Positions 32,362-50,487 of a stretch of DNA of 64,000 nt are shown piece after piece. The notes under the pieces are model-generated. The model made no database searches and was not told the DNA's origin. It was given only the letters and a program-made list of their open reading frames with translations. Location of the stretch: assembly GCF_900090195.1 (NCBI RefSeq), contig NZ_LT607803.1, forward strand, positions 558,001 to 622,000, written 5' to 3'. Numbering within the stretch: position 1 is the stretch's first letter; each line of letters opens with the position of its first letter. Origin of the DNA: Variovorax sp. HW608. Lineage in GTDB: Bacteria; Pseudomonadota; Gammaproteobacteria; Burkholderiales; Burkholderiaceae_C. A program made the translations under genes and the position numbers.

Positions 32362-33909
32362 ATGAAAAGTAGTGCTCCGGACGCCAGGCCGGCTCCGAAA
32401 CGAAGGCCACAGGATGAATTTCCGAGCGCCGACGCGCTTGCGGCGCTACGTGCCTGGTATGCGGGCTTGGACGCTCGCGCAGCCGTCGCGCGATACCTTG
32501 GTCAGGACAAGGCAACAGGGCAGTCCTCCCGCGCGGTGCTTGGCGCCATCCGCCGTGGCTTGGCTGGCTACGCACGGGCCAGGCACAGGGACGACCTCGC
32601 GGCACTGATGGAGCATCCCGCGGCCGAGCGGGACGCGCGCGCCTCCGCGGTCAAGGCTGCGATCGAAACCCTGCGCAACCTGTCCGTGCCCGAGCCACTC
32701 GTGACGGACAAGGTTGGGCGTTGGCTGCCGGCGCGCGCCGCGCGGGCCATCACGGCCTGCGGCATCAAGACCCTGGCCGACCTGACCGTGCGCGTGCCGC
32801 ATCGGCGCCGCTGGTGGGCCACCGTTCCAGGACTCGGCGCCCGCAGCGCGAGCCAGATCGAGGCGTTCTTTGCAGCACACCCGAGGCTGACCGAGCAGGC
32901 GAGGGCGCTGGTTGTTGTTCCCCGCACCGAAACCCCACCATGGGAGCGCTTTGTCGCTCCGACGGAGGTCGACGGCTCCCGAGGCGCATTCAGAGCACCG
33001 CAGGCGACCTGCACGCTCTCCGCGCGGAACGACTACGAAGCCGTGCGAACCTGGCTGGAACTGCAGGAATCCGCCGCCACTCAGCGCGCCTACCGCAAGG
33101 AGGCGGAGCGCCTCATGCTTTGGGCGATTCTTGAGCGCGGCAAGGCGTTGTCGTCGCTGACCACGGAAGATGCGATTGCGTATCGCGCGTTCCTTCGCCG
33201 GCCCACACCTCGCGATCGGTGGGTCGGGCCGGCCCGGCCGCGGTCGTCGCCCGAGTGGCGCCCGTTTCAGGGGCCGCTTTCCGGCCGTTCGGTCGCGTAT
33301 GCGCTGTCCGTCCTCGGGGCGCTCTATCGATGGCTGATCGAGCAGCGATACCTCCTCGCCAATCCGTTTGCCGGCGTCAAGGTGAAGGGGGCTCAGCGAG
33401 GGGGCGCCTTCGATTCGTCGCGTGTTTTCACGGAGCACGAATGGACGTTGATCCGCTCGTGCGCTGATGGCATCGAGTGGATCGGCGGATGGAGCGAGGA
33501 GGGCGCCCAACGCCTGCGGTTCGTTCTGGACTTCTGGTACGCCACGGGCCTTCGTCCCAGCGAAATGGTCGGCGCGCGTCTGGGCGATATCGAAGAGGAC
33601 GCGCAGGACGATCTCTGGCTCAACGTCGTCGGCAAGGGCAGCAAGCACGGCAAGGTCGCGCTGCCGCTGCTTGCCCGCGGAGCGATTGATCTTTATCTCG
33701 CTCATCGACGGTTGCCCATCACGCGATCGCGCTGGGATCCGAAAACCGCGCTCGTCGCCGGGCTCGCCGAAGACGCTAGCGGGATCACCGCGGCGCGCCT
33801 CTGGGCCATCATGCGGCGGTTCTTCCTGCATGTGGCTCATACGCTTCGCGAAATCAGCCCTGTCACCGCCGAAAAGCTGCGGCGCGCAACGCCGCACTGG
33901 ATGCGACAC
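32362..33909 (+). pseudogene. Large tyrosine recombinase with DUF3701-like N-terminus, 5' part (split by RIT element 2)
   Basis: 516 codons encode an N-terminal extension (ADALAALRAWYAGLDARAAV, VPGLGARSASQIEAFF helix-hairpin-helix), a core-binding domain and most of the catalytic domain, with the Arg box TGLRPSEMVGARL. It ends at TPHWMRH, where homologues continue THATHALARG. That continuation is at 37352-37543. Joined length 579 residues. The split removes the catalytic His and Tyr, so the integrase is dead. Confidence 0.9.
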
Positions 33910-33935
33910 TATGTACCCTTCCCGACTATGTCTTG
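33909..33935 (+). repeat. RIT element 2 left inverted repeat
   Basis: CTATGTACCCTTCCCGACTA continuing TGTCTTG. One mismatch over 27 bases with the reverse complement of 37292-37318. It includes the GACTATGTC motif. Confidence 0.88.
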
Positions 33936-34021
33936 TGAAAGACGCGCACGGACCGGTATGACGCGGTTTCGTTGGTTGCGCCGCGCAACTGCCGCGCGCT
34001 TGCCCGACATAGTCCGGCGAC

Positions 34022-35020
34022 CTACAGGCTGTTGAGGAACTCCATGAGTTGATCGCTGGGCCGATACCGAATCGATCGCCCCTGAAGTGGTGTGGCCTTG
34101 GCCAGAGCCTGTTCCTTCATCGCGAGGGATGCGTCGAGATAGATCTGCGTGGTCTCCACGCTCTCATGCCCGAGCCAAAGGGCAATCACGGAGCGCCTCA
34201 CGCCGGACTGCAGAAGGTCCATGGCCATGGTGTGCCTCAAGCGGTGGACGGTAACGCGTTTCTGTCGCAGCGACGGACAGGTGCTCGATGCCGTAAATCG
34301 ATGTTTGTTCAGCAGGTACTGCACCCCATGAACACTCAGGCGCTCGCCCTTGGCACTGGGAAACAAGACTTGCCCGTCGCCGCGCTGTCGCTCGCGCAAC
34401 CAGGCGGTCAAGACGGCCTGCGTTGGCTTGGCCAACGGCGTACATCGCTCCTTGCGGCCCTTGCCGATCACGCGCAGATGCGCCCCTGTCCCGAGGATAA
34501 GATCGTCGCGCGTGAGCGCGGTCATCTCGGACAGCCGCAAGCCGGTCTGCACCGCCACCAGTATGAATGCGTGATCGCGCCGCCCCGACCATGTGTGTCG
34601 ATCCGGAGCAAGCAGCAAGGCGTCGACTTCCGCGCGGGTCAGGAACGGGACCAGGGTGCGCGTGTAGCGCTTGCTCGGAATGGCCAGGACGCGCTGGATC
34701 TGCGCGGAATGCGCCGGAGCTTCGAACGCCGCAAAGCGAAAGAAGGAATGGATCGCTGTGAGTCGCAGATTGCGGCTGCGAACGCTGATGCCACGGCGCT
34801 TCTCCAGGTCATCGAGGAACGCTGCGATCAAGGGCGCATCGATCTCCTCGAAGTTCAGGCGTGACGGCGGCTTGTGCAGCCGCTTCTCGGCGAAATTCAA
34901 AAACTGGCGGAAGGTGTCGCGATAGGAACTGATGGTGTGTGCACTGGCCTGGCGCTGCAGCATCAAGCGCTGTGTGAAGAAGCGCTCCAGCAGCGAGGCA
35001 AGGCTGGCGAGTTGGATCAT
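34022..35020 (-). CDS. RIT tyrosine recombinase C (element 2)
   Basis: 332 residues with a complete catalytic set: TGLRLSEMTAL, HRLRHTMAMDLL and LGHESVETTQIYLDAS with nucleophile Tyr. The ATG overlaps the ritB stop. It ends RPSDQLMEFLNSL, comparable to the PDLLAFLQSL end of the element 1 protein. Confidence 0.92.
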   Translation of the reverse strand: MIQLASLASLLERFFTQRLMLQRQASAHTISSYRDTFRQFLNFAEKRLHKPPSRLNFEEIDAPLIAAFLDDLEKRRGISVRSRNLRLTAIHSFFRFAAFEAPAHSAQIQRVLAIPSKRYTRTLVPFLTRAEVDALLLAPDRHTWSGRRDHAFILVAVQTGLRLSEMTALTRDDLILGTGAHLRVIGKGRKERCTPLAKPTQAVLTAWLRERQRGDGQVLFPSAKGERLSVHGVQYLLNKHRFTASSTCPSLRQKRVTVHRLRHTMAMDLLQSGVRRSVIALWLGHESVETTQIYLDASLAMKEQALAKATPLQGRSIRYRPSDQLMEFLNSL

Positions 35021-35958
35021 GGCCGCCCCTCCCAGCAGTGTTCGAGGCGACGCATGGCCTCACGCATCAGTTCGGGGGACCCGTTCAGATACCACTGCGT
35101 ATCGGCGACGTGGACATGTCCGAGATAGGCCGACAGCACCGGCAGAAGGCGCTCGGGGTCCTGGTCCCGTTGGTACCAGCGCACGAGCGTATTCGTCGCG
35201 AAGCGATGACGCATGTCATGCAGGCGTGGCCCGTGGCTGTCGGACGGGCCGCGCAGGCCGATCTGCCGCGACAGCGCATAGAAAGTCCGATGCACATCCC
35301 CGGTATCAAGTCGATGACCCCACTTCGAGGCGAACACGTAGGATGACACGGGACGGGCCCAAATGAGTTCACGCTCGGCAAGGTACTGTCTGAGCACGTG
35401 GCAGGTGGACGCGTGCAAGGGCACAAGGCGGTCCTTGCCGCACTTGGCACCGCGGATGGTCAGCACCGCGGCATCCAGGTCGACGTCTGAAAGCTTGAGG
35501 TTGAGCGCCTCGCCGAGTCGCAGGCCCGTGACGCTCAGGAGTCCGAACAGGCAGTGGAATAACCTCGGCCTGAGTGCGTCACGCCGATAACGGCAGCGCA
35601 TGGCGAGCGCTGCACGCAACAAGCGGCTGATCTCTTCGTCGGAATACAGATAGGGGCGTACCCGCCGGGGTTCAAATGGCAACAAGCCTGGCGGCGGAAT
35701 CTGCGTGCGCGGATCTGTCGCGCTGCGATAGCGGGCGAATCCGCGAACGAAGCTCAGTCGTTGCGCCCAATGGGTCGGCGTCGCATCACTGGGCTGCTGC
35801 GCCCATGCCAGAGCCAACTCCGAAGTGATGTAGGCCGCGTGGCGTCGGCGCATGAAGGCGGCGAACTCGAGCAGGCCGTCGCCGGCTTCCCTGAGCTTGA
35901 AGCCCAGGTCGCGCCGCATCGCCAGATAGTCTTGGACAGCTTGTTGTAGTGTGTTCAT
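35017..35958 (-). CDS. RIT tyrosine recombinase B (element 2)
   Basis: 313 residues started at the ATG overlapping the ritA stop. TGLRLGEALNLKLSD, HDMRHRFATN (regular HxxR, unlike element 1) and YLGHVHVADTQWYLNGSP are present. Coupled to both neighbours. Confidence 0.92.
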   Translation of the reverse strand: MNTLQQAVQDYLAMRRDLGFKLREAGDGLLEFAAFMRRRHAAYITSELALAWAQQPSDATPTHWAQRLSFVRGFARYRSATDPRTQIPPPGLLPFEPRRVRPYLYSDEEISRLLRAALAMRCRYRRDALRPRLFHCLFGLLSVTGLRLGEALNLKLSDVDLDAAVLTIRGAKCGKDRLVPLHASTCHVLRQYLAERELIWARPVSSYVFASKWGHRLDTGDVHRTFYALSRQIGLRGPSDSHGPRLHDMRHRFATNTLVRWYQRDQDPERLLPVLSAYLGHVHVADTQWYLNGSPELMREAMRRLEHCWEGRP

Positions 35959-37193
35959 CGCGCATCCCCCGGCCACGGCAGTGCCAGCTTGCGCAGAGCC
36001 TGGATGTCGACCTTCGTGTAGATCATCGTTGTCTGTGGATGGCGATGCCCCAGGAGCTCACCGATCTCGCCCAGCGACGCGCCGCCGCGCAACATCTCGG
36101 TGGCCAGTCCATGACGAAACTGATGCGCACCGAAGGTGGGGGCGTCGACATCGCTGCGCTGCAGGCGATGCCGCACGATGGACCCAACGGTGCAGCCCCC
36201 TTGGAAGCCGCAAACCGGCGCTCGCGCGCGCAGAAAGACGCTTCGACTGGTGCTCGGAGGTCGACCGCTCTTCAGATAGACGGCGATCGCTCTGCCGACG
36301 TCGGCTGGCAGGGGCAACTTGTTGCGATAGCCACTCTTGCCGTGCACGCTCAGCTGCCCCGCCTTCCAGTCGATGTCATCGAGCTGCAAGGACGCCACCT
36401 CACCAGCACGCAACCCCAATCTGGCAAGCAGCAGCACGATGGCATAGTCGCGGCGCCCGAGCGCAGTGCGCCGGTCGATGCTGGCCAGCAACTGACGCAC
36501 CTGAGCCGGCCCGATTGCGCGCGGGATCGATGCCATCGACCAGTTGGGGACGACGGGAACAGCGGCCGCCAAATCCACATCGACGTCACCGCAAAACCGG
36601 GCGTAGTTCAGGAACGAACGCAGCGCGGTGGTCATGAGCTTGGCGCGCTTCCTGTGCAGACGTGGCGCCTGATGCCGCACGAAGTTCACGACATCGGCGG
36701 CACTCAAGCACGACAGCTTGACCACCCCCGCCCCGAAGCGATGCTCGAGGAAGGCGTGTACGAACGGAACGTAGTTGACGATCGTGGCTGTGGTCAGGGC
36801 ACGCTGCTCGCGCAGATACGCCTCGTAGGCGAGGACACATTGATCAACAGAGGACGGCGTGGGCACCGCGGTCGTCTCTTCGGGAACCACTCCCTCGCGT
36901 CGCAGAAAGCCCAACAAGTGCGTGAGCGCCCCATGGTCATCGCGCCTGGGCCGCAAGCGTCGGGCTCGATGCTGCAAGTACCGCGTCAGATGATCGGAGG
37001 TCAGGTCTTGCAGGGCCACCGCCTTCCTGCCAAGCCATTGGCTGAAGCTGGCGCCGAGCAGGACTTGGCGGTGAATCCACCACGCCGTGTATCCCGTTGC
37101 GATCAGCGAGTCGGCAAATCCGCCCAGGTACGGCGCGATCGGCCCGTCCGGAACTCGCGACAGAACCACCTGATTGCTGATGACGAACTTCAT
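35955..37193 (-). CDS. RIT tyrosine recombinase A (element 2)
   Basis: 412 residues. Arg box GLRAGEVASLQL is intact, in contrast to FGAGEV in element 1. HQFRHGLATEML and LGHRHPQTTMIYTKVD complete the site. First gene of the trio, about 100 bases from the right inverted repeat. Confidence 0.92.
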   Translation of the reverse strand: MKFVISNQVVLSRVPDGPIAPYLGGFADSLIATGYTAWWIHRQVLLGASFSQWLGRKAVALQDLTSDHLTRYLQHRARRLRPRRDDHGALTHLLGFLRREGVVPEETTAVPTPSSVDQCVLAYEAYLREQRALTTATIVNYVPFVHAFLEHRFGAGVVKLSCLSAADVVNFVRHQAPRLHRKRAKLMTTALRSFLNYARFCGDVDVDLAAAVPVVPNWSMASIPRAIGPAQVRQLLASIDRRTALGRRDYAIVLLLARLGLRAGEVASLQLDDIDWKAGQLSVHGKSGYRNKLPLPADVGRAIAVYLKSGRPPSTSRSVFLRARAPVCGFQGGCTVGSIVRHRLQRSDVDAPTFGAHQFRHGLATEMLRGGASLGEIGELLGHRHPQTTMIYTKVDIQALRKLALPWPGDAR

Positions 37194-37291
37194 GGCGAAC
37201 CCCTTGCCCCACCGGGCTGTGTTGAGGGGTCCGAGACTATGTCGCGCTTCTCAAGCGCAACCCGGCGTGCCACGAGGCTGTCGGCAAGGTG

Positions 37292-37318
37292 CAAGACATA
37301 GTCGGGAAGGGTAGATAG
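37292..37318 (-). repeat. RIT element 2 right inverted repeat
   Basis: Reverse complement of 33909-33935 with one mismatch. Six bases later a palindrome begins. Confidence 0.88.
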
Positions 37319-37323
37319 TGCCT

Positions 37324-37545: not shown

Positions 37546-37680
37546 AGCGATCTCACCTTCAGTGCTGCGGTACTGCGCAAGGTATCCAAGGTAAAGGTGG
37601 CGCATGAAGGCACGCGCTGGCTACGTTTCCCGTCGGCCGTGATGCGCGACATGAACTCTATGGTCAACGGGGCAAGTTAG
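37546..37680 (+). pseudogene. Unidentified C-terminal gene remnant
   Basis: A 44-codon frame without a start reads DLTFSAAVLRKVSKVKVAHE and GTRWLRFPSAVMRDMNSMVN. It has a protein-like composition and a regular stop but no N-terminus. It overlaps the end of the minus-strand HExxH gene by 4 bases. I cannot assign a family. Confidence 0.3.
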
Positions 37681-38690
37681 CCGGGCATCGTCTCAGCGGT
37701 GAATGGGATGTTGACCTGCAACCTGCCGTCGGGCGTCTGCGAAAAATGAAGGCCCCCGGCGGCAAGCACGTCTTCCAGAAGATCTCCGATGAGATCGAAC
37801 GACCTCATGTCATTCCACCTTCCATAGCCCTCCGCGATGGCCCGGCATCGGGTATGCAAGAGCTCGAAGTACGGGGCAAACCAATGTTCGCGCAGCGCGG
37901 CAGCAGTCTCCGGGCGGTCTCCTGGATCGACGCCATGCCCGTCGAGATTCCCCAAATGGTAGGCCGCGAACTTGAGCAAATTGCCGTACTCGGAATAGAC
38001 CTCCGCAAGCACCTGATCAAGTTTGTGGTGGATTCGATATGCCTTGATCCGATCATTGGCGACATTCCGAGCCTGGGCCAGATGCCCTAGGAAGGTCCTC
38101 TCGTATCCATCCGTGGGGTCCTCGCCAAACTCGGCGCTCAGACGTGTGGCGGCATACTCGTCCCAGCACGCGAGGATGCAGTCCCATCGATAGTGGGTGC
38201 GACTGTCGGCATGGCTCTGGCGTAAGAGGACACCTGGAAATGCGGCATCGAACTTGCGCGTGATTTCAGCGTGCGCACATTCATGAGCAATCAGGTGCAG
38301 CGCAAAGCGGTAGTTCTCGTGCTTCGCGTCTTCAATGCCAGCGACGAAGGCCGCATTGAACACGATGTGGCTCTTTAGGGCACCCGCTCGCAGAACCGAC
38401 GGCGTCATCGCGACCCCTACGGCCAGGCCGTCGCTCGACGTCAATTGATGTTTGGATTGATAGCCACGATCGAGATCAAGGAGAGCCTGAGGATAGTCGT
38501 AGGCCACCGTGACACCGTCAAGCCCACTGAGATCAAAGTTGCAGCTCAAAAGGCGCACAGACTCGCCGACTGCTCCAGCAAGACTGCGAGCTTGCTCCTC
38601 GCTTGCGAACGCACGCGCGCTCACCATAAACGAGGCGGGCGCCGTCGGGGTGCCGATATCCAGATCCGTGGTTGAGTTGGCTTCAGTCAT
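37677..38690 (-). CDS. HExxH-motif protein, last gene of the E2-E1-JAB operon
   Basis: 337 residues from ATG 38690; an in-frame earlier start at 38798 would overlap the previous gene. The motif AHECAHAE (HExxH) with downstream acidic residues suggests a zincin-type metalloprotease fold. No signal peptide, so probably cytoplasmic. The C-terminus ends AETMPG, a terminal Gly, which is notable beside an E1/E2 enzyme. It closes the operon begun at 44223. It could be an effector protease or the conjugation target; both are inference. Confidence 0.65.
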   Translation of the reverse strand: MTEANSTTDLDIGTPTAPASFMVSARAFASEEQARSLAGAVGESVRLLSCNFDLSGLDGVTVAYDYPQALLDLDRGYQSKHQLTSSDGLAVGVAMTPSVLRAGALKSHIVFNAAFVAGIEDAKHENYRFALHLIAHECAHAEITRKFDAAFPGVLLRQSHADSRTHYRWDCILACWDEYAATRLSAEFGEDPTDGYERTFLGHLAQARNVANDRIKAYRIHHKLDQVLAEVYSEYGNLLKFAAYHLGNLDGHGVDPGDRPETAAALREHWFAPYFELLHTRCRAIAEGYGRWNDMRSFDLIGDLLEDVLAAGGLHFSQTPDGRLQVNIPFTAETMPG

Positions 38691-38745
38691 AACGGAATCG
38701 ACGCGCGAATGGGGTCTATGAAAGTCAACTCGATATCGGTCGAGG

Positions 38746-39711
38746 CTACTTGAGTCCCTTGAATCCAGGCTTGTAGATGTTACGCAGAGTGTCGCCATTC
38801 ATCGACAACAACTTGCGCTTCTTCGCCTCATATTCATAGGCGGAAGAAATCTGCGTCGAATTCGACTTCAGATTCACCACTCTGTACTTTCCAGTGTGCG
38901 GCGGAACAGACTCGATGATCACGTCGCCGTGCTTGGTCGTGAAGATCCTAATACCCCGCTCGAAGAGCATGTCCTTGATCTCCTGCCGAGGGTGATCAAA
39001 ATGGTTGTCATAGTTGCTCGTGCAGATCGCGACACGGGGTTCGACTTCTTTCAGGAAGCGCCGAGTGGTGAACCCGTTGTCAGCCCCGTGGTGGGCAAGA
39101 ATGAGAACGTCGGTCTCTCGATTGAAGATGGTGCAGCGCCGAAGCATCGCTGCAATGGCCGGATCTTCAACATCCCCCAGGCTTGCAACATTAAAGCTGC
39201 CCTCGCGAAACAGCTTTACGGTGGAGTTGTCGTTCGAGGATTCGCGCAGTTCCTTGGGGTGGTAGACGATGTTGCGATAGCCCAGCTTTTTCCCGCTTTC
39301 CAAAGATTGAAGGTACGGCGGGTCCATGCACTGCGCGATCACCTTGACGCCGGTGTTGCGGCGAATTGCTTGGTAGGACCTGATCGCCTGCAGGCAGCTC
39401 CGCGCGGAATCGGTATGCGGCGGATATCCCGGATACTCGATGCGGCTCGGTCTCAGCGCCTCCAGGATCCACTTCAGACCGGAACTGCTGCAGTGATCAT
39501 TGTCCCAACTCGTGATGTGAAGCGTGTCAACGCTCTCCTTTCCGCAGATCTCCATCTCGCGACGCACTTGCGTGATATTGATGTCTGTTGCCATGCCCTC
39601 GACGAGGGTGAAGTGCTGGTTGGCAAAGTATGAATAAGACGCGCCGGCCTGACCGAGTTGGTAGGCGCGAAAGCGTGTGCGAACCGATTTCAGGGCGTCC
39701 ATCATTTCCAT
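38746..39711 (-). CDS. Metallo-beta-lactamase-fold protein (ComEC/Rec2-like), operon gene 4
   Basis: 321 residues. The usual HxHxDH box reads SWDNDH, so the first His is replaced by Ser. LAHHGADNG keeps the next metal-binding His, and the C-terminal region RIFTTKHGDVII fits the ComEC-like hydrolase branch. ATG 39711 or 39705 could start it; both overlap the patatin stop, so translation is coupled. It is a paralogue of the operon's first gene product. Substrate unknown, probably a phosphodiester. Confidence 0.75.
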   Translation of the reverse strand: MEMMDALKSVRTRFRAYQLGQAGASYSYFANQHFTLVEGMATDINITQVRREMEICGKESVDTLHITSWDNDHCSSSGLKWILEALRPSRIEYPGYPPHTDSARSCLQAIRSYQAIRRNTGVKVIAQCMDPPYLQSLESGKKLGYRNIVYHPKELRESSNDNSTVKLFREGSFNVASLGDVEDPAIAAMLRRCTIFNRETDVLILAHHGADNGFTTRRFLKEVEPRVAICTSNYDNHFDHPRQEIKDMLFERGIRIFTTKHGDVIIESVPPHTGKYRVVNLKSNSTQISSAYEYEAKKRKLLSMNGDTLRNIYKPGFKGLK

Positions 39712-40814
39712 CCCTTTCCCGAGTTGCTGACGCCGGCGTCGAAGAGCCCATACTCTCGCTCGACGCGAAGCGACACGTTGTAGCCGTGATTGAAGATTCG
39801 ATCGAACTCGGAGTGCTGAAGACGGCGCAATGTCGTGGGAAAGCGCGCGACGTACGGCGCCGAATCCTCGCCTCGGCTGTCCCGCACGGGCGTATCGATA
39901 TAGATGTAAGCGCCACCTGAGGGCGTTGTCCGAAGGTAGCCGGCAAATCCTCGCACTCGTAGCGCGCGCGCCTGATCTGACATGATGTCAGCGACCCGCT
40001 TGAGTCGGAAAACACTGAGCTGTGCGTGATCGAATCCCTTCGCGAGCGGCGCACCAGCGTCCGAAGCGATCAGATAGTGGCCTTCGAGCTTCGGCCGCTG
40101 GCGCCCAGCATCAAAGAAGGGCTCCAGGCCGAGGTTGTCGTACACGCCACCATCGTAGAGGTGGAGGCTCTCGTATTCGATCTTCACAGGCTGCTCGCTT
40201 CCCACGGGCGCGTCCCAAGGACGTTTGCGCCATTCGAAGCGCTTCGCGTCAAGGCGCAACGGGCCAAACCCACCGGGGAACGCAGCGGAGACGGCGAGCG
40301 CGCTTGCCAGGGGAAACCGGCTAGCGCCTGCGTAGCCCAAGTTGTAGTCACCGATGTCACTGCGCTTGAATCGGAACCGCTTGCCGTTCTCCGCAGTGGT
40401 CCCGTTGATCGACCACTCGGGCGACTCCGGAAGCGCCGAGAGGGCCCTATGGATTCCCCACTCGTTCTTCAAGCACAGGGCGAGCAGGTTCGATCGCGAG
40501 AGCACGTACCGGACGTTCAATGGGTTTCGTAGTTGTCGAAGGGCACCCCACTGAAGACTGGTCGCGCAGAGCTTTTCTCGCAGCGCTGGCAGCGTCCGCT
40601 GCAGGAACTGCTCGGATCCGGGCCAGGCCATCTCCGTTTCTTGCAGCATCAAACCGACGAGGAGGCTACCGCCCGAAACGGTTGAGACCTTCGTCACATG
40701 CTCGAGCAGCCCCCGCTCTGCCAAGCGTCGCAGGACACCGAGATGAAACACCATTGCTCGGACGCCCCCCCCGGATAGCGCCAGCGCGATGGGCATGGAC
40801 GATGCTTCGCTCAT
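39702..40814 (-). CDS. Patatin-like phospholipase, operon gene 3
   Basis: 370 residues with the patatin hallmarks: oxyanion loop LSGGGVRAMVFHLG (about 13-26), nucleophile Ser in TVSGGSLL (about 45-52), and the catalytic Asp in LYDGGVYDN (about 227-235). It hydrolyses acyl lipids; patatin proteins such as CapV act as membrane-degrading effectors in CBASS. The start overlaps the stop of the E2-E1-JAB gene, so it is tightly coupled to it. An effector role here is inferred from that linkage. Confidence 0.88.
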   Translation of the reverse strand: MSEASSMPIALALSGGGVRAMVFHLGVLRRLAERGLLEHVTKVSTVSGGSLLVGLMLQETEMAWPGSEQFLQRTLPALREKLCATSLQWGALRQLRNPLNVRYVLSRSNLLALCLKNEWGIHRALSALPESPEWSINGTTAENGKRFRFKRSDIGDYNLGYAGASRFPLASALAVSAAFPGGFGPLRLDAKRFEWRKRPWDAPVGSEQPVKIEYESLHLYDGGVYDNLGLEPFFDAGRQRPKLEGHYLIASDAGAPLAKGFDHAQLSVFRLKRVADIMSDQARALRVRGFAGYLRTTPSGGAYIYIDTPVRDSRGEDSAPYVARFPTTLRRLQHSEFDRIFNHGYNVSLRVEREYGLFDAGVSNSGKGWK

Positions 40815-43075
40815 CTGTGCACCTCACCTTGCAGGAGCTGGAGGTCATCACCGTCGCCAACAATGAGTTGTAGTACCGGCAGCCCGTCTTCATCCATCCG
40901 CAAGGCCAGTTCGGCCAGTTGGATCAGGTCGGCCCTGCTCGGCGATGCTGGGTGTCCGCGGGGGTGGCTATGCCACTCGCCGATGTAGCCCACGATGCCA
41001 GCGGTTCGACGGCTGGCTTCCTCGACTAATGCGGACAGTCCGGCAACTCCGCGCTCGAAGGACATTGTTGTGCCTTCACTGTCTGGCGGAGCAGCCAGGG
41101 CGTCCACAACGACGATCGCGTTGACGTTGAAGTCGATATAGCCCAGCAGTACGCCGCCAGTCTCGGCAGGGAGGGCCTCTTCGCGAGCGGCCTGCAGCAG
41201 CTTGATCAAGCCCTCGTCCAAGAATATCGGCATGTCGCCGAGCTCAAACTTTCGTTCTGCAATCGGCTCAACATCATGGACGGTGACGGCGCCTGACTCT
41301 GCGTCGCGCTGCCACACCCGAATCCCGGCGGCCGACTTGCGCGAGGAGACCATCGTCTGTTCGGCAAGCGTCGCAGCGTGCGCAGAAATGCGTGAATACG
41401 GCAGCGCCACGGAGATGTCGCGGCAGCTGGCACCGCTCCAGAATGTCGCCAGGTTGCCGTCGAGATGATGCTCGCCCCACGGCTGGCGGATTGCCGCTCG
41501 GTAATACTGCGCCTCGAGCGTGCGAAGCCGCACCGTCCTCTGCGCGTCTTCAGCCATTAGGACTGCGCCATTCCCGCTCGGGGTCAAGAAAACTGAGATG
41601 TGGCGGCCGACTCCCTCAAGGTTGCTCGAGAGGCGCGGGTAGTCGAGGGCCGATGAAGCATCGACGACCAGCTCTGCCGCTTCCAAGGCTTGGGTCACTG
41701 CTTCATCGGTCTTGTTCGTCGCGTCGGCGCCAATCGGTTTGACGGCCAGAGCTCCGTCGCTGAAGGCGCCGGTAAGCTCGGCCACAACATCCACTTTGAG
41801 CTGCCCGATATGCTGGGCGAAAGCGACATGCCGCACGAGGTTGTGTGGCTTGATGTGGTCCTTGTCGATCGCCGTCCAACGGCCCCAGCCAGAACGCCCC
41901 CATAGGTTCAACAGACTGCTTCCGAGTGAGCCGGCGCCGACCAAGACTGCGGTGGGCCCCTCATCGTCGACGCTCGACTGCCTTCGCGAAGCCGCGGCGT
42001 CATTGGTGCGCAGAACTTCCATCGGGAAGAGCGCTTTGGATCTCCACGAATCGCTTGGTTTCACCCCGAGCGCTGCCGAGGCTTCATCACGAAAGTAGCG
42101 CTTCTCGTGAACCATGAGCGCTCCAGTCGCAACGCCAAGCTCGCGAACGTCGCCGTCGATGACGAAGGCCTTTTGAGAAACTTGAGTGGGTTCCGAAGTC
42201 GCGTCGCGCGCTATCGGAACGTTCAACGCTACGACCAGAAGGGATTCAGCCTTCTCCACCGGAATCCCGCCGGCGCCAACCCCAGCCGCGAGCGCCTCTT
42301 TCAGGGGAGCGAGCAGATCGATGCCACGGCCGGTCAGAGCATCAGCGAGCTCACCGAAAGTGGTCGGATCGCGCTCGATGAAACCCTGGACGATCGCTGG
42401 CAATTCGATTTCGATGTGGGTCACCGTGCCTCGGGGAGAGTTGTCCTGCCTCGGGATGAAGTGGAGGAAGCAGGTCGCACCATCAGAGCGCTGTGGCCCT
42501 CGTTGGACGATGGGCCGCAGGTTGGGGTCGGCTCGAAGCTGACCGATGTTCCACGGCAGCACGAGTTCGTACTTCGAGACGAAAAAGAGCTGCTCGACCG
42601 GCTGATCGGCCGCATGCAACTCGCCCTTGGCGCTCTGTTCGAGCCACCATTGGATTCGGCGCAGGAATCGCTGCGGGGTCCATGTCCGCAGCACCGACTT
42701 CACGGGCTCGAAGTACAAGCAGAGGCTTGCCGGCCCTTCGCGCGACCCGTGATTCTGATGCATGAGCACTGGGAAGCCCTTGCGCATCGCCGCTATCTCG
42801 ACGAGCTTCTCGTCGTCCGCAGGAACGCACAACGCAATTCGCTCGCGAAACTCGATGCCAACGGCGTTCTTGGAAGGCACCCCATCACATTCGACATCAA
42901 CGATGAGGATTTCCATCCTCGGGTCAACGTCGGGCTTGGTCTTGAGGACCTGGACCAGCGAGTAGTCTCGATCAACCTTGATTGCAGCCAGCAGCGCGCG
43001 GGCCCGATGGATGAAGAGGCCATCGTCGCCAGTGACCTCAACGACGTTGCAGAGGTTGTGGAAATCGTTAGCCAC
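40811..43075 (-). CDS. E2-E1-JAB triple-domain ubiquitin-like conjugation/deconjugation protein, operon gene 2
   Basis: 754 residues from GTG 43075 (TAGTG coupling with the preceding stop, AGG upstream). Domains: E2/UBC-like region about 1-170 with candidate catalytic Cys119 in PASLCLYF; linker; ThiF/E1 adenylation domain about 370-600 with VGAGSLGSS (379-387), DKDHIKPHNLVRH and a candidate E1 Cys551 (GASCRD); JAB/MPN+ isopeptidase about 615-754 with ETGG (Glu637), WHSHP (His702, His704), Ser713 and Asp716. All key residues are present. CBASS Cap2 (E1-E2) and Cap3 (JAB) are separate proteins with the same activities. Predicted to attach and remove a protein's C-terminus on targets. Confidence 0.88.
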   Translation of the reverse strand: MANDFHNLCNVVEVTGDDGLFIHRARALLAAIKVDRDYSLVQVLKTKPDVDPRMEILIVDVECDGVPSKNAVGIEFRERIALCVPADDEKLVEIAAMRKGFPVLMHQNHGSREGPASLCLYFEPVKSVLRTWTPQRFLRRIQWWLEQSAKGELHAADQPVEQLFFVSKYELVLPWNIGQLRADPNLRPIVQRGPQRSDGATCFLHFIPRQDNSPRGTVTHIEIELPAIVQGFIERDPTTFGELADALTGRGIDLLAPLKEALAAGVGAGGIPVEKAESLLVVALNVPIARDATSEPTQVSQKAFVIDGDVRELGVATGALMVHEKRYFRDEASAALGVKPSDSWRSKALFPMEVLRTNDAAASRRQSSVDDEGPTAVLVGAGSLGSSLLNLWGRSGWGRWTAIDKDHIKPHNLVRHVAFAQHIGQLKVDVVAELTGAFSDGALAVKPIGADATNKTDEAVTQALEAAELVVDASSALDYPRLSSNLEGVGRHISVFLTPSGNGAVLMAEDAQRTVRLRTLEAQYYRAAIRQPWGEHHLDGNLATFWSGASCRDISVALPYSRISAHAATLAEQTMVSSRKSAAGIRVWQRDAESGAVTVHDVEPIAERKFELGDMPIFLDEGLIKLLQAAREEALPAETGGVLLGYIDFNVNAIVVVDALAAPPDSEGTTMSFERGVAGLSALVEEASRRTAGIVGYIGEWHSHPRGHPASPSRADLIQLAELALRMDEDGLPVLQLIVGDGDDLQLLQGEVHR

Positions 43076-44223
43076 TAGCCTGCACGAGAAGGTCGGCTTG
43101 TCACAATGGCCGCAGCACCGAAGCTCGTGGAGCGCTTCCACGAAAGCCCGCTCCCTCGGATCTCGAAGGCCAGGGGTTCGGGTTTCGACGCATTCGGTTC
43201 TTCCATCGTCACGAGGACCTTTCTAGCGCCGACCTCATCCTTGTAGCGCTCGTAGCACTTGCGGGCCTGGATGTGCGGCGGTTGAATCTGCTCGTACGAC
43301 TCCTTGACGTCGGTCACGGGGTTGCTGCAGCTCACGATGTATCCGTCTTTCTTGCCCATCAGCAAGAGGTCCTTCACCAACGGCTTCGGTGTCGTCTCCT
43401 TGTCTCCCTTCTCATCGCTCAGCGCGAGATAGCTGCAGTGGTGGGGGATGTTGAAGATGTCCCAAGCCAGCCGGTCGTCGTTCTTGTGCGCGCGGGTCGT
43501 GCGGACGATGTCCTCAAGATCCTCCCATGTCGCATCACCCACCTCGAGATAGTCGAAATCTGAACCGTCAGCGCGCAGGCGTACGTTGAAGACGAGGGCC
43601 GCCCGATTGCGGATCACATCTCCTTCATCACAGTGCTCGATAAACGGCGAGTGGCAGAAGAACTCCGCGCCATCAACCGCGAGCGTGAAACCCGGAACCA
43701 GTGTCCCTGCATCGATGAACAAGTGGTCTCGCGCATCCGCAGATTCGCCTCGTTCCTTGAGCTTTGGGATCAGCCAATCCATCAGCAACTGCGGCTGTGA
43801 AAACACCAGGATGTCATGGCCCTCAAGCAGTCGATGCCTTGCCTCCTGCCGCCAGAGCACGAACTCGTCGCTCTGCTGGTCATTGGATGCTTCTTCGAGC
43901 AGCATGGCCGCAGGAACCCAGAGCTCCCGAATCTTGATTCGGCCATCTCCTTGGTACTTGGCCGCGTGCTGTAACTCGAAAAATTCAGTGCTTCCCTGGA
44001 TGTGGTCCATGTCCGCGTGGGTGAATGCCACAACGTCAAAGTCATCCCTGTCGGCGTCCTTGAGCTCGGACTTGAGGCGCTTTTTGAGATCGATCTCGGG
44101 TGTGTCTTCCTTCTCGGACTTCTGCCGATGGCAAAAGTCGAAGAGGATTCGGCGGCCGTTATTCAGAACGACCTGCGACGTGTCGCCATTGCCGACGGGA
44201 TAGAAAAGAACTTTGTGAAGCAT
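43075..44223 (-). CDS. Metallo-beta-lactamase-fold hydrolase, operon gene 1
   Basis: 382 residues from ATG 44223. A TTG further upstream is in frame but less likely. Metal box THADMDH (HxDxDH type, as in ComEC-like hydrolases), NIPHHCSYLAL and VSCSNPVTD are visible. C-terminus ends PSRAG with a terminal Gly. It begins the leftward operon; its stop overlaps the next start by one base. The role is unknown. MBL-fold proteins are repeatedly linked to prokaryotic E1/JAB genes. Confidence 0.78.
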   Translation of the reverse strand: MLHKVLFYPVGNGDTSQVVLNNGRRILFDFCHRQKSEKEDTPEIDLKKRLKSELKDADRDDFDVVAFTHADMDHIQGSTEFFELQHAAKYQGDGRIKIRELWVPAAMLLEEASNDQQSDEFVLWRQEARHRLLEGHDILVFSQPQLLMDWLIPKLKERGESADARDHLFIDAGTLVPGFTLAVDGAEFFCHSPFIEHCDEGDVIRNRAALVFNVRLRADGSDFDYLEVGDATWEDLEDIVRTTRAHKNDDRLAWDIFNIPHHCSYLALSDEKGDKETTPKPLVKDLLLMGKKDGYIVSCSNPVTDVKESYEQIQPPHIQARKCYERYKDEVGARKVLVTMEEPNASKPEPLAFEIRGSGLSWKRSTSFGAAAIVTSRPSRAG

Positions 44224-44502: not shown

Positions 44503-44966
44503 TCAGCCCTCTTGCTCGGCGACGAACTTGGCTTTCGCCAGCTCCTGCGCAATGTCGTTCCACCTCGCCTCGCCGGCGAACATGACCATCCGCTCCACGG
44601 TGCGGGCCGGCGCCGCTCGGCGCAACGACTCAGGAACGTCCGCCGGACGCATCCTCCACGGCCGAAGGGCGTGGCCGGCCTCGGCCGCACACCGGCTCAG
44701 GAAGGCTGCGATCCGGAACCCGCCTCGTCGACGTCGCCCCAGTGAAGCACCGGCGTTGCGGCCGTGAACTCGGAGAGCAGCCGGAGATACATAGCTCGCC
44801 AGGCAGGGGAGGGCATTCCAGCGGTGTAGAGGCACAGAACGTCAGCGTCGCAGTGCTCCCGCGCCCAGACATGAAACGTGGTCTGGTCCTCGATCGTCAG
44901 CACCTGACTGGGCATGGATCCGACGCCCAGTACCGTGGATGGAGGCAGGGCGCAGTTGCCCTTGCG
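44503..44966 (-). pseudogene. Decayed Wadjet JetD C-terminal (Toprim-like) fragment
   Basis: The minus strand reads VLTIEDQTTFHVWAREHCDA, LYTAGMPSPAW and VLHWGDVDE, then needs a one-base frameshift near 44726 to continue GGFRIAAFLSRCAAEAGH and VERMVMFAGEARWND. This matches the JetD C-terminal domain, whose WGDIDxGG acidic motif is part of its nuclease site. An upstream in-frame stop near 44975 and the missing N-terminal half show it is a remnant. No jetA, jetB or jetC is present. Confidence 0.65.
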
Positions 44967-46894: not shown

Positions 46895-47761
46895 ATGAAA
46901 GTCCTAATCCTTTCCGACCCGCATCTGGAGTTCAGTCCGTTCGAACTGCCAGCAGGACTGGAGTTTGATGTCGTAGTCTTGGCAGGGGACATCCACTCGC
47001 CTGCAGCGAAGGCCGTCCGTTGGGCAGGTGAGGGCACGCGGTTCGGCGGCAAGCCCGTGGTCTACGTGCCCGGCAACCACGAGTTCTATGACACACGTAT
47101 GGACCATGCGATCGCCGAGATGCGGGCCGCGGCACGGGTCAACGGTGTCCACTTTCTCGATGGTGACCAAGTCCTGATCGATGGCGTGCGCTTCCTCGGC
47201 GCAACGCTTTGGACGGACTTCGAGCTCAACATCCAACCGCCGGCCCTCGGTGGTTCGGTGATGGATCTGGAGCGAGCCCTGCGCCTCGCATCGAACTCGT
47301 TGAACGACTACACCTTGATCCGAACACCCGACGAGGAAGCCGAGCCCGATACCTGGCGTAGCAAGCAAGGACGTCGACTTCAGGCCGCCGACACCCGACA
47401 GATCCATCTTTCGCAGCGCGAGTGGTTGAGCCGGATGCTTCAAGAGGAGTTCAGCTGGCCCACCGTTGTCGTGACGCACCACGCGCCGCACCGCGGTTCG
47501 CTTGCCGCTCGGCATGCTAGCGACTGGGTGTTCCGCGCACGCGTAAGCGAGCTAGCGGAAGATCTGTTCGAGGTACCGGCCCTATGGATTCACGGGCACA
47601 TCCACCAAAACCTCGATTACCGCGTCGGCTCCTGTCGGGTGGTCACGAACCCGCGCGGCTACGTGCGGTGGGGCGGTGCCATGGAGAACCCGGCCTTCAA
47701 TCCCAGCCTGATAGTCGACTTGAAGCGCCCAGCCCCTCAACCCAACGGAGAAAAGAGATGA
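46895..47761 (+). CDS. Calcineurin-like metallophosphoesterase 1
   Basis: 288 residues with the full two-metal motif set: LSDPHLEF (DxH), AGDIHS (GDx), PGNHEFY (GNHE), THHAPH (His) and IHGHIHQ (GHxH). Cleaves phosphomono- or diesters. The stop overlaps the next start (ATGA). Two paralogues follow within 3 kb. A nucleic-acid substrate is plausible with SAK-like HAD neighbours but is unproven. Confidence 0.9.
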   Translation: MKVLILSDPHLEFSPFELPAGLEFDVVVLAGDIHSPAAKAVRWAGEGTRFGGKPVVYVPGNHEFYDTRMDHAIAEMRAAARVNGVHFLDGDQVLIDGVRFLGATLWTDFELNIQPPALGGSVMDLERALRLASNSLNDYTLIRTPDEEAEPDTWRSKQGRRLQAADTRQIHLSQREWLSRMLQEEFSWPTVVVTHHAPHRGSLAARHASDWVFRARVSELAEDLFEVPALWIHGHIHQNLDYRVGSCRVVTNPRGYVRWGGAMENPAFNPSLIVDLKRPAPQPNGEKR

Positions 47762-48159
47762 GCGAAACGACACCCGACCCGCCATTCTTCCTTGAGGAGG
47801 AGCGTCAGCAGCTCCGTGAATGGGTGCGCTTGAACGGTCGGACAGTTGCGCCGGAGGACCGATATCGAGCATTGCTTGAAGCAGGCGAGCTGCTGGCTGC
47901 GATCGGCTTCCGACCCTACGACCACTATGAGCTCTTCGGCACGCGCCTGTCGGATCATTTCCAGCAACTCGCAAGGTCTGCGTTGGCGAATTTTCCCCAA
48001 CCCGGTGACCTTCTGAGCATGATCGAAAGCGGCGAAAGCTACGCCCCGTTGGACTCGTGGCTCCGTCTGCCGCCGGAGGTACTCCAGCGCTACCGCGAGT
48101 CCCTTCGCGAGGGCGATCCGAGGTACAGGGTGACCACGGACCTCGACGACGATTTCTGA
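47758..48159 (+). CDS. Hypothetical acidic/helical protein
   Basis: 133 residues, mostly helical by composition (FLEEERQQLREWVRLNGRT, DHFQQLARSALANF), ending in an acidic run DLDDDF. No domain recognised. It overlaps the first metallophosphoesterase gene by 4 bases and precedes the second by 14, so it belongs to the same transcript. Confidence 0.65.
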   Translation: MSETTPDPPFFLEEERQQLREWVRLNGRTVAPEDRYRALLEAGELLAAIGFRPYDHYELFGTRLSDHFQQLARSALANFPQPGDLLSMIESGESYAPLDSWLRLPPEVLQRYRESLREGDPRYRVTTDLDDDF

Positions 48160-48173
48160 GGTCTATGCGAGAT

Positions 48174-49004
48174 ATGCGCCTTCTGATTCTTTCGGATCTC
48201 CATGCCGAGTTCGAGCCTTTCGAGGCACCTGAGAGCTTGGACTATGACGTTGCCGTCCTCGCCGGCGACATCGTCGCGCCTGGCCGCGTGATCGCAAGCT
48301 GGCTCCGGAGCCCCGTTCGGTTTGGCGACAAGCCGGTTGTGCAGATTGCTGGCAACCATGAGTACTACGAGTCTGTGCTGAACCAGGAGGAAGCCGAGAT
48401 GCGCCTCCAAGCAAAAGAGCAGGGCGTGCATTTCCTTGACTGCGATGAAGTCGTCCTGGGCGGGGTGCGGTTCCTGGGCTGCACGCTCTGGACCGACTTC
48501 GGGTTGCGGATCGACGACCCCGGCTTTCCTGGGCAGCCCGTGCGGATGTTGTCTGATCGGTACCGCTCGATGACGGAAAGCTCGCGGTATCTCGCAGACT
48601 ACACCGCCATCCGTATCGAGGAGCCACGTACCTCGAACTCGCGCGGCACGCGGCGCCTCATTCCAATGGACACCCTGCTGATCCACCGGCGGCACCGCGC
48701 ATGGCTGCGGAGGAAGCTCGCCGAGCCTTTCGCTGGACCTACGGTGGTCGTGACGCACCACGCACCGCATCGAAAGTCACTGGCGCCCCGGTACGCGGAG
48801 GACTGGTCATCAGGCGGCTTCGTCAACGAGATGCCGCCCGAGTTCTTCAAGGTGCCGGTGCTGTGGATTCACGGCCATACGCATGACAGCTTCGACTACC
48901 GTGTCGACGGCTGCCGCGTCGTGAGCAACCCTCGCGGCTACATGAACTGGCATGGGGAGTTTGAGAACGCGCGGTTCAATCCCGGCTTGGTGATCGAGGT
49001 CTGA
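48174..49004 (+). CDS. Calcineurin-like metallophosphoesterase 2
   Basis: 276 residues. LSDLHAEF, AGDIVAP, AGNHEYY, THHAPH and IHGHTHD give a complete active site. ATG 48174 is chosen by alignment with the starts of its two paralogues (MKVLILSD, MKLLILSD); ATG 48165 is a possible alternative. Divergent from paralogue 1, so the duplication is old. Confidence 0.88.
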   Translation: MRLLILSDLHAEFEPFEAPESLDYDVAVLAGDIVAPGRVIASWLRSPVRFGDKPVVQIAGNHEYYESVLNQEEAEMRLQAKEQGVHFLDCDEVVLGGVRFLGCTLWTDFGLRIDDPGFPGQPVRMLSDRYRSMTESSRYLADYTAIRIEEPRTSNSRGTRRLIPMDTLLIHRRHRAWLRRKLAEPFAGPTVVVTHHAPHRKSLAPRYAEDWSSGGFVNEMPPEFFKVPVLWIHGHTHDSFDYRVDGCRVVSNPRGYMNWHGEFENARFNPGLVIEV

Positions 49005-49810: not shown

Positions 49811-50059
49811 ATGGCGGCCACGTCGAACTCAAACAGCAAGCAGCCTGAGTCGCACAATCGGCTTCAGCTCGCACGGCTTCTGGAACTCTATGCGAAGGGG
49901 TCGCTGACTTGGCGAGAACTCTCGCGCTTGACCGGCCTAGCATATGGCGAGATTCTCATCGAGCTGGGCAAACGTCGCTTGGCGCTGCCGCGGGTCGCCC
50001 CGAAGCGCCGGCCCGTGCAGGATGCTCTCTTCGAGCGCGCGTTGCGCGGTGACGAATGA
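49811..50059 (+). CDS. Small protein with UPF0175/HTH-like segment
   Basis: 82 residues. LARLLELYAKGSLTWRELSR and LTGLAYGEILIELGKRRLAL resemble a helix-turn-helix or UPF0175-type antitoxin. The stop overlaps the nucleotidyltransferase start by 4 bases, so it may regulate the downstream toxin-antitoxin pair. Upstream sequence AAGGAGCGCAGAATC resembles the leader of the 45192 gene. Confidence 0.55.
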   Translation: MAATSNSNSKQPESHNRLQLARLLELYAKGSLTWRELSRLTGLAYGEILIELGKRRLALPRVAPKRRPVQDALFERALRGDE

Positions 50060-50487
50060 AGCAGAGCAAGTACAACTACCCCCGGTGGAAGACGGGAATG
50101 CCAGAGGACACCAGCGCACGCGAGCTTCGCGAATCCCGCGCTTGGCCGTACGATCGAAGGAGCATGCTTGGCCTGTATCGATCTATGAAAGATATTCGCA
50201 GGGAAGGCAGCGAGGCGCTGCTTCGACCTCAGGTTGAGGCGGCGCTTCGCGCGTTGCGATCACGCGGCATGAAAGTCCAGGCGATCGGCTCCTTCGCAAA
50301 GCCTGACGCCTACTTCGATCCGAACTCGGACATCGATCTTCTAGTGGAAGATTCCGGCGGGCGCAGCGACCTGGAGATCTGGCGAATCGCAAGAGAATGG
50401 ATCCGGGACGCTGAAGTGGACCTCGTATTCGCCAACGCGTTGGACGCGGAGATGCTGGGATTCATGAGGCACGGAGTGCGCCAATGA
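50056..50487 (+). CDS. MNT-type nucleotidyltransferase (antitoxin candidate)
   Basis: 143 residues with the Pol-beta-like motif GSFAKPDAYFDPNSDIDLLV (GS...DxD) and a third acidic residue in EVDLVFAN. MNT proteins pair with HEPN toxins and can neutralise them by AMPylation. It overlaps the HEPN gene by 4 bases. The N-terminal 60 residues are an extra segment with no clear family. Confidence 0.8.
   Translation: MKQSKYNYPRWKTGMPEDTSARELRESRAWPYDRRSMLGLYRSMKDIRREGSEALLRPQVEAALRALRSRGMKVQAIGSFAKPDAYFDPNSDIDLLVEDSGGRSDLEIWRIAREWIRDAEVDLVFANALDAEMLGFMRHGVRQ

Follow-up and report, generated by a model that had tools for sequence, protein, structure and literature searches.

An operon of the 6A-MBL type in Variovorax sp. 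HW608: a constant Arg-Ala-Gly end of its MBL-fold protein as a probable conjugation tail, and an exchangeable effector gene

Introduction

What do the E1, E2 and JAB enzymes of an operon conjugate when neither a ubiquitin-like protein nor a CD-NTase is recognised among its products? The question is raised by a window of Variovorax sp. HW608 (the whole stretch of 64,000 nucleotides that was analysed, positions 558,001 to 622,000 of contig NZ_LT607803.1), in which an E2-E1-JAB fusion is encoded together with two MBL-fold proteins (MBL1 and MBL2), a patatin and an HExxH protein. An earlier note on this DNA had read the five genes as a new anti-phage or stress conjugation system in which an operon member is conjugated and the patatin is the effector, set among mobile elements and defence remnants. 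We will see that the conjugation system, an operon member as the probable conjugated protein, the patatin as the probable effector and the setting are supported, and that the novelty of the system and the five-gene unit are to be given up.

The operon and its setting

The gene set lies at 37677..44223 of the window. The re-derived open reading frames reproduce to the base the gene order, strand, overlaps and gap described before: five genes are present, all on the minus strand; in transcription order the first four overlap by 1, 4 and 10 bases in turn, and the HExxH gene follows after 54 bases (Table 1). The numbering of Cys119, Cys551 and His702 was also right, because the fusion begins at GTG 43075. 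The fold assignments of the operon proteins rest on Pfam, PADLOC and NCBIfam profiles (NCBIfam in its June 2026 version).

Table 1. Features of the operon, with positions in the window
Feature	Position	Strand	Evidence
MBL1 (382 aa)	43075..44223	-	ATG 44223; NF058524, 383.5 bits (cut-off 220)
Arg-Ala-Gly tail of MBL1 (R380-A381-G382), proposed conjugation tail	43078..43086	-	homologue tails, codon diversity, background
E2-E1-JAB fusion, Cap2-Cap3-like (754 aa)	40811..43075	-	GTG 43075; NF058523, 663.5 bits (cut-off 320)
Prok-E2_A domain with Cys119 (codon 42719-42721)	42539..42985	-	PF14457, 2.9e-35
ThiF/E1 domain as matched	41654..41947	-	PF00899, 6.5e-12
Cys551 codon, downstream of the ThiF match	41423-41425	-	conserved in alignment
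JAB/JAMM isopeptidase domain	40856..41203	-	PF14464, 1.4e-12
Patatin-like phospholipase, Ser47 and Asp221	39702..40814	-	PF01734, 2.6e-18
MBL2, ComEC-like MBL protein	38746..39711	-	TIGR00361, 1.1e-11 (below cut-off); PDC-M48B, 4.3e-6
HExxH protein	37677..38691	-	ATG 38691; no convincing Pfam, PADLOC, NCBIfam or PDB match

By these profiles an E2, a ThiF/E1 and a JAMM isopeptidase domain are predicted to share the 754-residue protein, as had been claimed, and their key residues are invariant: Cys119 of the E2, Cys551 of the E1 and Glu638, His702, His704, Ser713 and Asp716 of the JAMM domain are the same in 50 of 50 aligned fusions (the window and 49 of 68 near-full-length rows). Likewise, Ser47 and Asp221 of the patatin are invariant in 29 of 29 aligned patatins, and from their families we take all these residues to be catalytic. 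The best solved matches of the ThiF/E1 part are Cap2; the PADLOC E1-E2 and JAB models match the fusion, and the JAB part reaches 29.9 bits against the NCBIfam Cap3 model, below its cut-off of 200.

In agreement with the earlier reading, Pfam, PADLOC and NCBIfam recognised neither a CD-NTase nor a ubiquitin-like protein in the five operon proteins, and a PADLOC scan recognised no CD-NTase in ten further proteins of the window. One may nevertheless wonder whether the locus derives by decay or reshuffling from a type II CBASS, of which the patatin would be CapV, the cyclase would be lost or encoded elsewhere and the signal would be a cyclic nucleotide. The Cap2-like E1 part and the sub-threshold Cap3 match would suit such an origin, and the search for a CD-NTase was confined to the operon and those ten proteins; yet the operon has no recognised CD-NTase, its patatin matches no PADLOC model, and MBL1 and the fusion form a widespread pair of their own with conserved active sites, so that we regard this origin as very unlikely.

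The HExxH gene shares the strand of the other four and follows them after 54 bases, which speaks for the five-gene system first proposed. However, none of the genes called across the 82 loci of the survey described below is a homologue of it. Its relatives were found on 32 plasmid records (17 of Rhizobium or Agrobacterium), and the six of them that were inspected all lie apart from any MBL1-fusion pair. Among these six, one is a fragment that follows a CBASS operon, and another is 2.3 kb from a different MBL-fold gene. For a relative from the window's genus, the 14.5 kb read contain no 6A core. From these comparisons the HExxH gene is probably an unrelated passenger and not part of the system, and we give hardly any credence to a unit of five genes, in which, moreover, MBL2 would be an occasional accessory.

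The claim of a setting among mobile elements and defence remnants is borne out by recombinases, a JetD fragment and PADLOC candidate matches nearby. The HExxH gene is closely followed, on its downstream side, by what looks to us like a recombinase-in-trio (RIT) element (33907-37320), in which three tyrosine recombinase genes that overlap one another (34022-37193) are enclosed by 29-base inverted repeats, 97% complementary. Next to MBL1 on its upstream side, a minus-strand fragment (44503-44835) corresponds to positions 313-387 of the 394 of JetD, at 84 bits; JetD is a Wadjet component, and the fragment is, judging by this match, a defence remnant. On the plus strand, the products of 46895-47761 and 48057-49004 match PDC-S10 of PADLOC at 39 and 36 bits, in both cases with their first part, and Pfam identifies the latter as a calcineurin-like phosphoesterase; 50056-50487 gives a weak match to the PADLOC candidate PDC-S09.

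A widespread pair

In the survey, a single genome of each species was scanned with an alignment of five sequences; this yielded 76 loci from the best 80 of 111 matching stretches, so its prevalences describe such a sample and not a census. The total rises to 82 loci when five from plasmids and one from a genome in the window's genus are included. The fusion gene is recognisable in 81 of them (the exception is L131), and MBL1 lies upstream of it in 76 of these 81; it was not found upstream in L070, L075, L132, L133 and L015. Of 261 records 60 were listed, and ten more distant plasmid relatives of MBL1 were taken from these; in each of the ten, the next gene downstream on the same strand matches the fusion model, in L140 across a short opposite-strand open reading frame. 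No orphan MBL1 was met among the loci looked at. As far as sequence comparison goes, MBL1 and the fusion are a widespread pair of their own, with conserved active sites.

Several loci depart from the common layout. The annotated fusion gene of L140 has no E2 part. On an Aeromonas salmonicida plasmid (L147, 4486-7892), MBL1, E1 and JAB are three separate genes, there is no match to an E2 part, and MBL1 ends in Ala; the arrangement resembles that of Cap2 and Cap3 in type II CBASS, the MBL protein taking the place of the cyclase. In a genome of the window's genus (L162), the fusion gene is split over two frames and accompanied by a gene of the membrane family TM13, and MBL1 was not found beside it: this is a decayed copy. 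A divergent WYL-domain gene adjoins MBL1 in L012, L013, L140, L144, L149 and L175, and such loci often carry a further small gene behind, which in L175 matches the membrane family STM2. The operon version on a plasmid of E. coli SE11 consists of an STM2-family membrane gene, a WYL gene, MBL1 and the fusion; when 5426 E. coli genomes were compared with it by megablast, 31 gave a match.

The C-terminal tail of MBL1

MBL1 closes with a stretch rich in Ala, Ser and Pro and a final (Pro)-Arg-Ala-Gly. The NF058524 match stops at residue 359 of 382, and the tail therefore lies outside the model. Among the 76 MBL1 proteins of the survey (again, from the best 80 of 111 stretches), 71 have Arg-Ala-Gly (RAG) within their last 20 residues: it is the exact end in 52 and is followed by 1-7 residues in 19, and some tails repeat it (...PPRAGYRAG). 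The five others are L129 (...PPQAG), L134 (...PRFG plus three residues), L135 and L137 (both ...KQG) and L115, a partial frame of 228 residues that has no RAG-type tail. When the 72 homologues above 300 bits are aligned with the window MBL1 (four of the 76 fall below and were left out), the C-terminal Gly382 is identical in 73 of 73 rows, as are His69, Asp71, Asp73, His74, Asp230, His261 and His262, which we take to be metal-site residues; the Arg and Ala of the tail are conserved in 70 of the 73.

Outside this set the ending is more varied. RAG is found in three of the ten plasmid MBL1 proteins (L140, L142 and L149) and Ala in L147, and the other six end in RVG, HG or GFG plus 0-4 further residues. 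In L173 the end is PRAG plus three residues; on viral contigs, PRAG stands at or near the end in L164, L165 and L168, and RAG is absent from L169 and L171. The His-Gly tails of L143, L144, L145 and L148 belong to one clade of the fusion tree (support 100), and the type of tail, as judged from the sequences, follows the clade of the fusion.

Such a constant tail points to selection on the protein, because all synonymous codons are used, the background is low and the tail persists after clustering. Every codon for Arg (six), Ala (four) and Gly (four) occurs in the 71 RAG tails, which comprise 45 distinct 9-mers. RAG occurs in the last 20 residues of 5 of 881 other genes of at least 150 residues from the same loci, never terminally, and of one of the 29 second-MBL proteins of the effector modules, which are the whole of the MBL-fold control. 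After clustering 72 of the MBL1 proteins at 70% identity with the tail excluded, RAG is present in 33 of 36 clusters. An origin of the tail as a by-product of the gene overlap or of a ribosome-binding site was rejected, given the use of all synonymous codons and the 23 of 71 tails that, with the start codon of the next gene estimated, have no overlap onto it.

We therefore regard MBL1 as the probable conjugated protein of the system, and the claim that an operon member is conjugated can now be made more specific: MBL1 would be conjugated by its constant, ubiquitin-like RAG tail, in the part that the CD-NTase plays in type II CBASS. Since the E1, E2 and JAB residues are invariant, no ubiquitin-like protein is recognised and the C-terminal Gly is constant, the JAB part would be the protease that trims and releases MBL1, and the 19 tails with 1-7 additional residues look like precursors.

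It could also be that the fusion conjugates some other protein, either a ThiS/MoaD-like protein of the host or a distant ubiquitin-like protein, MBL1 being an effector nuclease only and its tail a docking peptide for the fusion or its JAB part. The passages of Iyer et al. 2006 on these operons (PMC1779556) indeed propose an endogenous ThiS/MoaD or an operon-encoded ubiquitin-like protein as the modifier; MBL1 also matches the PADLOC models for the MBL proteins that belong to DRT, Lamassu and Avs systems, and one such MBL nuclease, HamM, is described in PMC12799240 as a DNase that proteolysis activates. In a docking peptide, however, the Gly need not be the most constant residue, yet it is the same in all 73 rows, and the short extensions fit precursor processing, which makes this alternative rather improbable in our eyes.

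The effector gene and its exchange

The fusion is followed by a patatin gene on its own strand in 31 of the 87 other loci; these 31 include a few near-copies. In 21 of them the patatin start overlaps the fusion stop by 4 bases, and in some of the 31 the MBL1 gene is cut or was not found. When the effector cluster is recorded for each row (88 with the window, whose label was set by hand), patatin accounts for 32, TM12 for 24, TM13 for 13, STM2 for 7, STM for 4 and STM3 for 2, and 6 have none. The TM and STM families are membrane-protein-like by the hydropathy of their representatives. An effector from one of six clusters is thus near the core in 82 of 88 rows, a count that is partly circular, as the models were built from the same loci, and that includes weak upstream hits (54-68 bits) and opposite-strand hits; the models also match seven of the ten plasmid loci, which were not used in building them. 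With effectors found near the core and the patatin behind the fusion in so many loci, the earlier view of the patatin as effector gains weight, and by its sequence it is a probable membrane effector of the system, with predicted phospholipase activity.

The position of the effector is downstream on the same strand in 67 of the 81 other rows that have one, upstream in 4 and on the opposite strand in 10. On the fusion tree its type changes 23 times when "none" is counted as a state and 19 times when it is not; a subset tree of 55 rows (33 of 88 dropped) gives 11 changes, the minimum possible being 4. Read from these trees, the effector gene is exchanged while its place mostly stays.

A second MBL gene is near 24 of the 87 other rows. 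Of the two models of PDC-M48, a candidate defence module in PADLOC, PDC-M48A matches the STM family and PDC-M48B the second-MBL types MBL2, MBL2b and MBL2c. An MBL2 of the window type lies beside the patatin in L092, L110, L094 (a remnant) and L173 (Gluconobacter, convergent), and in Arsenophonus (L174) beside an STM gene with no 6A core. As regards conservation, the five-gene set was found nowhere else, whereas the MBL1-fusion-patatin set recurs in 31 of 87 other loci and patatin plus MBL2 in four. Besides the window gene itself, a search for MBL2 relatives gave, among the matches listed, only partial ones, nearly all in frames of more than 500 residues that are probably ComEC. MBL2c has a match in 6 of 398 genomes, directly behind the core in one and with no 6A core within the 14-15 kb read in five, four of which have a TM12 or TM13 partner. 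In a Castellaniella MAG (L109), two pairs of MBL2c and a membrane protein stand in tandem behind a single 6A core. We read MBL2, from its distribution, as an optional, occasional accessory of the effector, and PDC-M48 as an effector cassette that would also exist alone. Of the MBL2b proteins, 13 of 15 (L009, L066, L068, L072 and others) end in Gly and have no RAG; this may be chance by kinship, or else a second tail.

These observations bear on whether two independent neighbours are seen here, namely a two-gene 6A-MBL system and a co-localised toxin-type module of patatin and MBL2 or of PDC-M48. MBL2c without a core in five of the six genomes with a match, the effector modules that are upstream or on the other strand, and the description of type 6a as "usually with two genes" in Iyer et al. 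2006 (PMC1779556, part on these operons) would fit this. The 4-base patatin/fusion overlap in 21 of 31 loci, a patatin that follows the fusion on its strand in 31 of 87 and an effector whose type changes while its position is mostly constant argue against it, however, and we consider two separate systems unlikely.

A proposed mechanism

Together, the gene order, domains, conserved catalytic residues, constant tail and effector exchange that are read from the sequences lead us to a reading that we consider likely: an operon of the anti-phage 6A-MBL type, in which the fusion would conjugate MBL1 by its tail and primed MBL1 would unleash the patatin effector. From them we infer the conjugation and priming of MBL1, its link to the effector, defence and cell killing. 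The fusion would adenylate the C-terminal glycine of MBL1 (...Arg-Ala-Gly), bind it as a thioester first on Cys551 and next on Cys119, and finally attach MBL1 to lysines of itself or of other proteins. The fused JAB would trim MBL1 precursors that extend a few residues past the glycine, and would release conjugated MBL1. MBL1 is a metal hydrolase whose active site is conserved, and conjugation would prime it in much the way that the CD-NTase is primed by Cap2 in type II CBASS; active MBL1 would then unleash the membrane effector, here the patatin phospholipase, whose action MBL2 would modulate, and the infected cell would stop before phage release. Against this model speak the MBL1 proteins that lack RAG (five of 76, with L169 and L171 on viral contigs), the fact that MBL1 is a hydrolase and not a cyclase, which leaves its step to the patatin unexplained, and the Gly ends of the 13 MBL2b proteins, for which the model does not account.

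More generally, and more tentatively, a folded metal hydrolase might act as a ubiquitin-like modifier, and conjugation by its tail might control interchangeable membrane-killing modules (patatin, the membrane families and PDC-M48) with no cyclic nucleotide made by a CD-NTase. If true, this would answer what the E1-E2-JAB enzymes of 6a operons modify, namely an MBL protein, by its Arg-Ala-Gly tail, and would provide the second case, after the CD-NTases, of a folded enzyme used as a tag. It would suggest tail conjugation as a general switch for immune enzymes, and PDC-M48 would gain a place as an exchangeable effector cassette.

Relation to known systems

The idea of a new system had to be dropped: MBL1 and the fusion, adjoining with a 1-base overlap, both far exceed the curated cut-offs of the NCBIfam 6A-MBL models for the MBL-fold protein and for cap2_3 (Table 1), and their gene pair is operon type 6a in the part of Iyer et al. 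2006 that lists it (PMC1779556). The core is for these two reasons already known, and the operon is, by profile, a variant of the known anti-phage 6A-MBL system, defence being NCBIfam's label. The parts of Iyer et al. 2006 on type 6a (PMC1779556) do not describe the tail or exchangeable effectors, and no description of the MBL1 tail or of the effector exchange, nor the source of the name "6A-MBL", was found in the literature searched, a scope that had bioRxiv and most subscription journals outside it; the tail may already be known elsewhere. Compared with 6A-MBL and type 6a, the window has the identical gene pair of MBL1 and an E2-E1-JAB fusion, but adds a patatin, MBL2 and, probably by chance, the HExxH gene.

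With type II CBASS the operon shares E1-E2 and JAB enzymes, a partner enzyme with a C-terminal Gly or Ala (here Gly382 of MBL1) and the phospholipase effector present in some of those systems (PMC10097602, in part). According to that paper, a thioester links Cap2 to the C-terminal Gly of the CD-NTase; where an operon encodes both Cap2 and Cap3, the last residue of the CD-NTase is conserved as Gly or Ala, which is not the case in other operons (PMC10097602). The window differs in that its partner is an MBL hydrolase rather than a nucleotidyltransferase, its JAB is fused to the E2-E1 and its patatin matches no PADLOC model. Membership of type II CBASS was rejected, as no CD-NTase is recognised in the operon.

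Bil systems have E1, E2 and JAB enzymes as well, and the part of PMC11354881 concerned describes a tail exposed by the JAB protease; in contrast, no beta-grasp ubiquitin-like protein was recognised in the window operon by Pfam, PADLOC or NCBIfam. As to PDC-M48, MBL2 (weakly, at 4.3e-6), MBL2b and MBL2c match its model B and STM its model A, whereas PADLOC finds no PDC-M48A membrane protein in the window operon, where the patatin stands in that protein's place. What the operon would add to the known systems, as far as its sequence and those of its relatives indicate, is the ubiquitin-like tail of MBL1, a varying effector gene and a five-gene set that is unique to the window within the survey.
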